A DNA stretch of 64,000 nucleotides from Ryuthela nishihirai (Eukaryota; Arthropoda; Arachnida; Araneae; Heptathelidae): positions 41,820,307 through 41,884,306 of the forward strand of contig JAWZYU010000020.1 of NCBI GenBank assembly GCA_038380435.1, in the 5' to 3' direction. Positions 16,027-19,774 of this stretch are shown here, in pieces; position 1 is the stretch's first letter, and each line of letters begins with the position of its first letter. The notes under the pieces are model-generated. The model was not told the DNA's origin. It saw only the letters and a program-made list of their open reading frames with translations, and searched no databases. The translations under genes and the position numbers were made by a program.

Positions 16027-16669
16027 TGTTGCGGATCACAAAAATGGATAGCCGCTGAGCGTGAGTATTAAAAGCTATATTTCAAAACCAAATTCAATAC
16101 AAGGTAAATTGTTACAAAGGAAATATGGATGAAGTATCTTATTAACAAATCAACTATTAACATGCACAAGTCATCAATCTTCCTGCGTAGAGCACACAAT
16201 ATCAGCTCTGTGTATTTTACTAAAATACTACCTTTTACTTGATTTACCAGGTCACCCGAAGATCTTCACTCGTAAACCAATTCTCGTCCTGTGCTAATAA
16301 CTTTTCACACACTAGCCGAACAAAAAGACAGTCCGTGTAGACATTCGAAGTTAGCCATAAAAGTTCCCACTTTTATACTTCCGCGTATACACAACACATC
16401 AAGTTACTTCTTGATACTTAACGATAAAAGATCCCACTTTTATCCTTCCGCGTATACACAACACATCAAGTTACTTCTTGATACTTACGCGCACTGTCTC
16501 AGAACAGCTCACCGTCCATTTTCGAACTCTCCGACCGTTACAACACAACGACCGTTACAATACAAAACGACCGTTAACTCTCCACTCTTCTTCTCCAAAT
16601 TCTCCCAACGTTCTTATTCGTTGGCTGAAACTTTTTGCTTTCGGTTGCCAGATTCCTTCTGTCGTAACA
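16027..16669 (-). repeat. 3' LTR (643 bp) with an internal 67-bp duplication
   Basis: Matches 19807-20382 along its length. It carries an extra tandem copy: ATAAAAG...ACTTAACG at 16357-16423 is followed by ATAAAAG...ACTTACG at 16424-16490. The extra unit accounts for the whole length difference of 67 bp. The ORF stop (16574) lies inside this LTR. Confidence 0.93.
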
Positions 16670-19600
16670 CTGCCCCCTTCCTAGGTCTTGTTCGTCCCGA
16701 ACAATTCTGGATTCCAAAGTTTCTTCAGTTCTTCGATGAAACGGAGCCAAACGATCCACGTGAACCACCTTGCACTTTGTAGCTGGACGTCGACGAATGC
16801 GATATACCACGTCTGTGTCAAAATGAAAGCGAATCTCATTATGACGTAGATTTCTTTTCTGACTGAAGCCTCGTCCACAAACATAATACGTGTAAGGCCT
16901 ATAGCCCTTGTGAACACGTTTATGTCTCTGCAGGGAGAAGAATCGACTAAGAGTTTTCGTGCAAAACCTGTAAAAAGTTTTCTTCTTTGTCGAAAGTTTT
17001 CTTTTTTGGATTTTTACTTCTATCAAGAGTAACAAGGAATGAAAGTCATTAGTGACATAAAATCTAGGGAGAAGTTTCATCCTCCAGTCTGACCTTTTTG
17101 TCAGTTGACTTTCCCTTAATTCAGAACTGTCGTGATGAACCTTCAGCCATATTTCACCTGATTCCATTTGATCCCCAAGGTGCTTCACAAATATAATATC
17201 AGCTCCATAATTCTTTTTAGCTCTTCGGTCCATCTCCTCCTTCCATACTCTTGCTAGAACTGCAGCTTCTAATCCGACAACCTTACCTGTTTCTCCTGTA
17301 TAAGTGAAATCAGTGATGTGTCGGGCTGCTAGCAATATTTTTTCTGTTTTACCTTCACATAGCCAGCTTGCAACATCTTCAGATACTCCTTGTTCTATTA
17401 ACATGTTACGAAACTTGTTCAAAGCATTGCCGTTATGCAGAACCTTACGGACACGTGATGCTTCATCTACCCTATTATCCACAATGTTCACAAAACGCAG
17501 AAGTTCTCCTAACTCCTCGACGAGCTCTTGCAGTTCCAAGGATCCGTTACCAAGGAAACACTGAACAGCTTCCATCACTTCCAGAGAGTTGTCAACAGAG
17601 TTTTCAAGAGGTGAATCCATGTTGCTGATAACAGCTGAACAACTCAAACTCTTCATTCCACGAGCTTGTGATGCTGCAACCACTTTCTTAACTAAATCAA
17701 CAGCAACATCTTCTGTACTGATGAGATCAATAGCTCCTTTTCCGAATTCAACATCATAAACCAAAGCACACACTCCTTCAGCCAGCTTTTTGGACACAAT
17801 TGAGCATATCATTAGAGGAACGCTATCTATGGTAGCCATCAGATCCTTGTAGCGGTAAATCTCCTTATCTGTTGGCACCAGCTCCTCTGTCTGTCCTACG
17901 ATGCAGCATCCGACGTCTTCCATCATCTGCTCGATTTTATCTTTAGTGCAGTCGACTGTGAAGCCAGGGATGGATTCCAATTTGTACAGAGTATCTCCCG
18001 TCAATTGGAGAGCACGACCGGAGATCATAGGGACCTTGAGACCTAAAGCAGCAAGTGCAGGAGCCAAGACAAGACTCACTTTGTCGCCGACACCTCCTGT
18101 ACCGTATTTATCTACCATCCGATGGCGCCACTCGGGTCTCCAGCAAAACACATGACCCGAGGAGGTCATAGTTGCTGTTTCTTCGGAATTCACTTTCTTG
18201 GAGCTCTCATTGTAATTAGCCAGGGAAACATCAGTCATGATTGCCAAATTGTTCATTCTGGAGATCAGCGACGAGTTTTGTAACATGATATTGTCCACTT
18301 TAGAGCTCTTGTAGTCGTGATAAAACTTTTCTACATCCTTATAATCTAAATGGTTATAATGTCCAAATCTGCACATTGACTGTTCAGAAAAGAAATTCAG
18401 CGTGGCTACGTTGAAATTATCTGAGGGATTCACTTCTCTCTGATCGTAACTCTGAGGCTTAGTTTCATCCAGAAAGTTAGTCTTTGAAGTACTGTCTCTG
18501 CCTGAAGCTCTTTTACTAGCATCACCTGTTATGCTTCTAAGCCATTCTTCGGAATTCCTCTTCCTTAAATCCCCACTTTCTATAAACGATTCAAGTGTGG
18601 CTATATGCTTCGGAAAAATCTCTCCGACTTCCCCAGTAACGTCGAATGGCACTTTGTATCTATGATGAATGGACACCTCTTCTTTACTCGGACCACTCTG
18701 CGAAACGTAAACTCTGTTTCGTTCCCCCTCATTACCACTCGTTACTCTGCCTTTGCGATAATTGTCCATGACACATTTTGCTGACGGCGAGGAATAGAAT
18801 ACCTTTCGTGTGGATCTCTCTTCAGATCGTGCCAGACTTGTATACCTAGGTATTTTGAAGTGCAAAGCGTACTGTATAGTCTCACAGCTCTCTGATCTGT
18901 GTGATTGTTCTTCACAGTTCCTAGACATGTCACCAGCTACATAGACACTCTGCCATGCATCACCAGTAGTTGCGTGGTCAAAGGCATTATCTGCGCTATC
19001 TCTACGATTCTTGATTTCCAGTAGCAGATCCACATTTCGAGATTCTCCTTTCTTCCGAAGATTCGATTCTTTTGCAGTCTTCCTCTCGCAGTCCTCTCGC
19101 ACTTTCTCCATCTCTCTCGAGATCTCTTCAATCAATATGAAGGCTTCATCAGAACGCCACTGCCCCAGCGAGCTTCTCCTGTCCGTCGAATTTTGTAGAA
19201 ACGAATTGAATCTACATTGCTTCTTTTTCAGATAGCGAAGAATCCCAGAATGTTTTCTGGTTCCGCATCGTTTCTTAAATTGCTTCTTTTTCAGATAGCA
19301 AAGGATCTTGGAATGTTTTCTGGTTCTGCATCGTTTCTTTCCCGCATCAGCATTATGTTCATCTGTACTATAGCTCCCACTGCTGGAGATATATTCACCT
19401 TCAACCAATTTCGTTGTCTGAACTGTAACTGTAACAACATCTCTACCAGCTCTCGATTCTTGCATAATTTTGTTCCTATAATTTTTATACTGCTCAACAA
19501 TATTCTTACGGTTAGCATCTTTAAAACATTGTTCATCTGTAATGTTACCTCCAGTGCTGTTAGTTTTGCAAATTTCACCTATTGGTTTTGGATTCACATT

Positions 19601-19774
19601 TTGATATGCGTTGCCTTTCTCTTTTTCCTTTTCATTATTTTGTGTAGCCATTGCGGCTTTCATTTTACCATTTTGACTGATCATTTCATCTAATGTCCTA
19701 TTTTGTGCCGCTATTTCGGCTTTCATATCAGTCATCAGCTTTATTAACTCATCCATACTTCTAGTGAAAGGCAT
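16574..19774 (-). CDS. Chimeric gag / thymidine-phosphorylase-like / zinc finger / integrase-tail ORF
   Basis: An uninterrupted 1,066-residue ORF with ATG at 19774, 12 bases after the PBS. Residues 1-60 are a coiled-coil, gag-like N-terminus (MDELIKLMTDMKAEIA). Residues 148-188 hold a 21-residue tandem repeat (KKRCRTRKHSKILCYLKKKQ and a near copy). Residues 190-530 are unassigned, charged and partly helical. Residues about 532-892 align with thymidine/pyrimidine phosphorylase: DKYGTGGVGDKVSLVLAPAL, VPMISGRALQLTGDTLYKLE, ATIDSVPLM, SIVSKKLAEG, SGEIWLKVHHDS. The family's DKHSTGG, GRGLGHTGGTLDKLE and GAGR motifs are altered. About 80 N-terminal residues are missing. Residues 934-981 resemble a C2H2 finger pair with some ligands lost. 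Residues 988-1011 match the gypsy integrase C-terminus. Catalysis is doubtful, but the frame is open throughout. Confidence 0.85.
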   Translation of the reverse strand: MPFTRSMDELIKLMTDMKAEIAAQNRTLDEMISQNGKMKAAMATQNNEKEKEKGNAYQNVNPKPIGEICKTNSTGGNITDEQCFKDANRKNIVEQYKNYRNKIMQESRAGRDVVTVTVQTTKLVEGEYISSSGSYSTDEHNADAGKKRCRTRKHSKILCYLKKKQFKKRCGTRKHSGILRYLKKKQCRFNSFLQNSTDRRSSLGQWRSDEAFILIEEISREMEKVREDCERKTAKESNLRKKGESRNVDLLLEIKNRRDSADNAFDHATTGDAWQSVYVAGDMSRNCEEQSHRSESCETIQYALHFKIPRYTSLARSEERSTRKVFYSSPSAKCVMDNYRKGRVTSGNEGERNRVYVSQSGPSKEEVSIHHRYKVPFDVTGEVGEIFPKHIATLESFIESGDLRKRNSEEWLRSITGDASKRASGRDSTSKTNFLDETKPQSYDQREVNPSDNFNVATLNFFSEQSMCRFGHYNHLDYKDVEKFYHDYKSSKVDNIMLQNSSLISRMNNLAIMTDVSLANYNESSKKVNSEETATMTSSGHVFCWRPEWRHRMVDKYGTGGVGDKVSLVLAPALAALGLKVPMISGRALQLTGDTLYKLESIPGFTVDCTKDKIEQMMEDVGCCIVGQTEELVPTDKEIYRYKDLMATIDSVPLMICSIVSKKLAEGVCALVYDVEFGKGAIDLISTEDVAVDLVKKVVAASQARGMKSLSCSAVISNMDSPLENSVDNSLEVMEAVQCFLGNGSLELQELVEELGELLRFVNIVDNRVDEASRVRKVLHNGNALNKFRNMLIEQGVSEDVASWLCEGKTEKILLAARHITDFTYTGETGKVVGLEAAVLARVWKEEMDRRAKKNYGADIIFVKHLGDQMESGEIWLKVHHDSSELRESQLTKRSDWRMKLLPRFYVTNDFHSLLLLIEVKIQKRKLSTKKKTFYRFCTKTLSRFFSLQRHKRVHKGYRPYTYYVCGRGFSQKRNLRHNEIRFHFDTDVVYRIRRRPATKCKVVHVDRLAPFHRRTEETLESRIVRDEQDLGRGQCYDRRNLATESKKFQPTNKNVGRIWRRRVES
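16670..16683 (-). other. Polypurine tract
   Basis: On the coding strand AGGAAGGGGGCAG lies directly before the 3' LTR start TGTTACGACAG. This is the expected place for the plus-strand primer. Confidence 0.75.

Follow-up and report, generated by a model that had tools for sequence, protein, structure and literature searches.

In maize, Bs1 is an LTR element in which pieces of three host genes form a chimeric gene (PMC13317346, PMC5408686). In metazoans, LTR-mediated retroposition has been described, in which a switch of template between an LTR element and the mRNA of a host gene leads to a chimeric cDNA (Tan et al. 2016, via PMC5408686 and PMC9674220). The W-linked PxyMasc retrocopies of the moth Plutella consist of partial host cDNA beside an LTR-retrotransposon gag and are present in 11 copies (PMC9674220). 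In the accessible parts of these papers, gene captures by LTR elements are reported as single or few copies (PMC5408686, PMC9674220, PMC13317346).

The locus described here was found in a window of 64,000 nucleotides (the whole stretch of DNA analysed). It is predicted to be a non-autonomous LTR retrotransposon with a chelicerate-type thymidine phosphorylase (TP) core, whose capture would have taken place in Gypsy-type particles, through a template switch onto a spliced host mRNA, and which would now be carried as a passenger. We assign a probability of about 0.75 to this reading.

Structure of the element and its reading frame

The complete LTR retrotransposon occupies positions 16027 to 20382 on the minus strand of the window; all element features given below lie on this strand. 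The 5' LTR (19807 to 20382; 576 bp, TG...CA) was delimited by LTR comparison and by the element ends. The 3' LTR (16027 to 16669; 643 bp), delimited by LTR comparison, has the sequence of the 5' LTR, extended by an internal tandem duplication of 67 bp. The primer-binding site (PBS) TGGTGTCAGAAGTGGGAT (19787 to 19804), which is presumably of the tRNA-Leu type, is located 2 bases past the 5' LTR, and the polypurine tract (PPT) AGGAAGGGGGCAG (16670 to 16682) adjoins the 3' LTR. LTRs, PBS and PPT had been placed outside the reading frame in an earlier sequence-only reading of the locus; all of them are present, and reconstruction of the empty site added a target-site duplication, ATAT, on the left (16023 to 16026) and on the right (20383 to 20386). 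The two LTRs differ by no substitution in 576 aligned bases and by a single 67-bp indel, the tandem duplication within the 3' LTR. The two 67-bp units of the latter are 94% alike, and the substitution count varies with the unit aligned. The copy is thus young, as had been proposed.

The insertion target is a decayed LINE reverse transcriptase (20660 to 21154, minus strand), recognized by Pfam and by joining of the empty site. When the flanks were joined, the decayed reverse-transcriptase frame was open across the junction, and its YADD motif is split by the inserted element. Another LINE, at positions 1365 to 5186 on the plus strand, shows matches to endonuclease, reverse transcriptase and RNase H and comprises two adjacent open frames in the same reading frame, with a single stop codon between them. 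A sequence resembling a tRNA, though with an unusual anticodon of four bases, lies at 14645 to 14720 (minus strand) and is possibly the head of a SINE.

One intact ORF of 1,066 amino acids plus stop (16574 to 19774), present in the ORF list and confirmed on the minus strand by genome search, occupies nearly the whole interior of the element, and its final 31 codons fall inside the 3' LTR. Residues 532 to 888 (17111 to 18181) represent the captured TP core, which was assigned by Pfam (Glycos_transf_3, E 6.4e-30), by structure-sequence match (human TP 2j0f, E 7e-73) and by the tree. The TP-like domain of the sequence-only reading, drawn there to residue 892, was thereby recovered. The TP of Limulus is 47% identical to that of the element. 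As judged by sequence alone, the core of the glycosyltransferase-3 fold is present; a structure model of the TP piece was poor (mean pLDDT 58) and was left unused. An N-terminal domain of TP (Glycos_trans_3N), suggested by similarity seen by eye upstream of residue 532, was rejected as part of the capture, since it was undetectable in a shuffle test, where 726 and 838 of 1,000 shuffles, for two profiles, scored at least as high as the real sequence.

Downstream of the TP core, a C2H2 zinc-finger piece (about residues 932 to 984; 16823 to 16981) was identified by Pfam scan and structure-sequence match. It is decayed, having lost cysteine ligands as judged by eye, and is probably a second capture. 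It is followed in the same frame by the proposed integrase p58 C-terminal remnant (residues 988 to 1011; 16742 to 16813), which matches the Pfam family PF22938, taken by us to be tied to Gypsy, with 27 bits, right at the cut-off of 27. With E values up to 0.1 admitted, Pfam recognized TP, zinc finger and integrase C-terminus in the ORF and nothing else; no match to reverse transcriptase, RNase H or protease was obtained. The element, whose interior is nearly filled by the ORF, is therefore filed as non-autonomous, and the ORF without a reverse-transcriptase match agrees with the proposal of an LTR element lacking most of gag-pol.

Residues 1 to 531 (18182 to 19774) form a family-specific N-terminal region, defined by Pfam scan, homologue search and family alignment. 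No Pfam match was found for this region, and a homologue search with residues 1 to 530 yielded none at E 0.01 among 3,830 candidates. It differs across family copies through repeats and deletions. The gag-like start noted earlier is supported by no Pfam profile; it is the N-terminus typical of the family, and the label was given by resemblance alone. With the whole ORF, no homologue was obtained at E 0.001 among 7,994 scored candidates, in a search whose length limit excludes ordinary TPs.

Copies in the genome

The genome assembly (3.11 Gb) was searched with a TP probe of 30 bases, allowing up to 3 mismatches, and 2,193 places were found, a number that counts TP segments and not complete elements; the reversed control gave 0. 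Neither this abundance nor the zinc-finger piece had been part of the sequence-only reading. Some of the 100 TP-probe places listed are 3.4 to 5.0 kb apart and resemble a tandem array. On one contig (C1 of G000), places such as 30088360, 30091787 and 30095214 follow each other with an even, tandem-array-like spacing of 3,427 bases. Some of the TP places are thus not separate insertions.

Of 11,366 first-look candidates, 43 were scored with the whole protein as query. All of them are near full-length, with 93 to 100% identity, and 31 are stop-free; the 44th match is a fragment of 33 residues. A spider-like TP query (P0003) gave 93 scored places among 2,506 candidates, with 45 to 49% identity to the query. 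The TP part is stop-free in 86 of them, which indicates a TP without introns there and bears out the earlier statement that the captured segment has none.

From the 43 matches, 20 copies including that of the window were taken with their flanks; being those closest to the window copy in protein sequence, they are biased to young copies. All 20, each at a different place, possess two LTRs, PBS and PPT and are bordered by matching 4-bp duplications, which read ATAT in 17, ATAC in 2 and TTTC in 1. This makes the assembly artefact, against which a check had been advised, unlikely. No substitution was found between the LTRs of 15 copies, and 1 to 5 were found in the other five. Beside each of the sampled elements L012 and L020 lies another LTR of this family, which suggests clustering of elements.

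Three other copies with TP, L051 to L053, each with interrupted frames, are bounded by LTRs of a related type, LTR-B. They are found on three different contigs with common flanks and the duplication GTAT. Their interiors differ by 27 to 69 mismatches and several indels, and each LTR pair by 1 to 2 mismatches. They may go back to a single insertion that was multiplied together with a larger surrounding repeat, to insertions into a site that is itself repeated, or to conversion. The LTR-B copies were considered as the autonomous partner and rejected, as they carry TP as well and their open frames match the ORF of the window. A further copy, L050 (G000:C46:3247800-3256800), looks like a recombinant: its 5' LTR is of the window type and its 3' LTR is an LTR-B, a matching duplication is lacking, and its integrase C-terminus is longer and in part duplicated. 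Given the flanks common to L051 to L053, the missing duplication of L050 and the spacing of 3.4 to 5.0 kb, not all copies are independent retrotranspositions.

Selection on the captured segment and its origin

The pairwise pN/pS in 18 copies was 0.98 for TP and 0.93 for the zinc-finger part. Lower values were obtained for residues 1 to 270 (0.67), 271 to 531 (0.38) and 1 to 1034 (0.61); those of residues 271 to 531 and of the whole ORF leave room for constraint outside TP. In addition, 40 copies (L009 to L048), picked by protein similarity and thus favouring open frames and young copies, were tested against a mutation model built from synonymous changes. No region of the ORF departed significantly from the neutral expectation in this test. 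The TP part showed 127 nonsynonymous, 55 synonymous and 4 stop variants (observed/expected 0.86, p 0.36), with stops below expectation (4 versus 8.7 expected, p 0.18), and residues 271 to 500 showed 93, 36 and 4, respectively (ratio 0.99). Purifying selection on TP is therefore unsupported, and the proposed comparison between copies gave no significant constraint.

Several positions of the TP core are altered, given here in what we take to be human TP numbering, with His116 and Arg202 presumed to be catalytic. The position of Arg202 is occupied by Lys in 40 of 40 copies, that of His116 by His in 9 of 40 and that of Lys115 by Glu in 10 of 40; the positions of Ser217 and Lys221 are kept in all 40. 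In view of these changes, the neutral-fitting variants and the undetectable N-terminal domain, the TP of the element is probably inactive and not maintained. The sequence-only reading had offered recent constraint or very recent birth as reasons for the long open frame. The youth of the copy speaks for the latter, while the neutrality of the 40 copies, the undetectable domain and the exchange of Arg202 for Lys speak against the former.

A tree was built from 38 rows, made up of 6 element copies and 32 TPs taken from the 120 listed. Although its bootstrap had not settled, the element TPs group in it with horseshoe-crab and spider TPs inside Chelicerata (support 99/97), beside a group including spiders (88/84). 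This position and the absence of introns lead us to infer a capture from spliced mRNA of this host, itself presumably a chelicerate. Of the two things that were to be sought, other LTR-flanked copies were found (20 of 20, with the window copy counted), but an intron-bearing parental gene was not. A query with 78 residues of the TP N-terminus gave one weak match in the genome (L049, E 0.95), located in a LINE; as a native TP exon it was rejected, since it reads as LINE reverse transcriptase. The pattern HTGGTLDKLE occurred at 0 places in the genome and TGGTLDKLE at one (L054), which is an element copy and was likewise rejected as native TP. The TP of Limulus is without the His of this motif, and the genome search with P0003 was saturated by element copies. 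These failed searches do not show that the gene is absent, as a TP could be missed if introns interrupt the motif, if it has diverged or if it falls into a gap of the assembly. A loss of the ordinary single-locus TP is considered improbable; in that case the host gene would have turned into a selfish element, and TP would persist only in about 2,200 LTR-borne copies that are mobile and for the most part inactivated.

Proposed mechanism and comparison with known systems

The absence of stops from many copies (31 of the 43 near full-length matches, 86 of the 93 places scored for the TP part) might also be explained by a protein that serves the element, with the TP fold retained as a module, either as a nucleotide-pool enzyme or as a structural or RNA-binding part. 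The pN/pS of 0.38 in residues 271 to 531 and the number of TP stops, which is below expectation but not significantly so, point in the same direction. However, the search method itself favours copies with open frames, the TP region has a pN/pS of 0.98, and no region was significantly off neutrality in the 40-copy test. Together with Lys at the Arg202 position in every copy and the undetectable N-terminal domain of TP, this makes a useful module unlikely.

By analogy with the LTR-integrated PxyMasc retrocopies in the moth (PMC9674220, as far as its accessible part describes them), the copies could instead be a source of small RNAs directed against the host TP gene. The 2,193 TP places would suit such a role, but a native TP as target was found neither by the N-terminal query nor by the two motif patterns, and we regard this role as very unlikely. 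That the long ORF is meaningless and its resemblance to TP is due to chance or misassembly is already refuted by the similarity to human TP (E 7e-73), the 2,193 occurrences of the TP segment and the separate matching duplications of all 20 copies.

For the preferred reading, a passenger captured in Gypsy-type particles, the following course is conceivable. An autonomous Gypsy-type element would co-package spliced host mRNAs, and a template switch during reverse transcription would produce an LTR-flanked chimera whose ends belong to the element and enclose the TP and zinc-finger pieces. The LTR promoter would drive the chimeric RNA, which an autonomous Gypsy-type partner with the same LTR, PBS and PPT signals would package, copy and integrate in trans. 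Both the TP and the zinc-finger pieces would stem from spliced mRNAs and contribute nothing to mobility, and the long ORF would be open through the youth of the sampled copies and not through selection on the protein.

Since the captured enzyme core occurs at 2,193 places and some of the sampled insertions are recent, very many replicates could serve to trace what becomes of a captured gene, including its decay or constraint, its dependence on a partner and its effect on the parental gene. Annotators should be aware that gene prediction could turn such copies into a huge family of "thymidine phosphorylase" genes.

In the literature searched, outside of which most subscription literature lies, no title dealt with an LTR element that carries TP; the same holds for a captured enzyme at such copy number in an animal, which is weak evidence given this scope. 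The mechanism as such is already known from Bs1 and from LTR-mediated retroposition, as far as the accessible parts of the sources describe them. Within the same bounds, the element resembles Bs1 as an LTR element carrying host-gene pieces in a chimera, but other genes and another host are involved, and here the TP segment, most of the core of one enzyme, is found at 2,193 places of an animal genome. In contrast to the chimeric cDNAs described for LTR-mediated retroposition, the chimera of the window has itself become a large mobile family. With the PxyMasc retrocopies, as documented in the accessible part of that report, it shares the partial host-gene cDNA associated with LTR-retrotransposon sequence in several copies, whereas here the LTRs are complete, target duplications are present, the insertions are dispersed and the copies are far more numerous.
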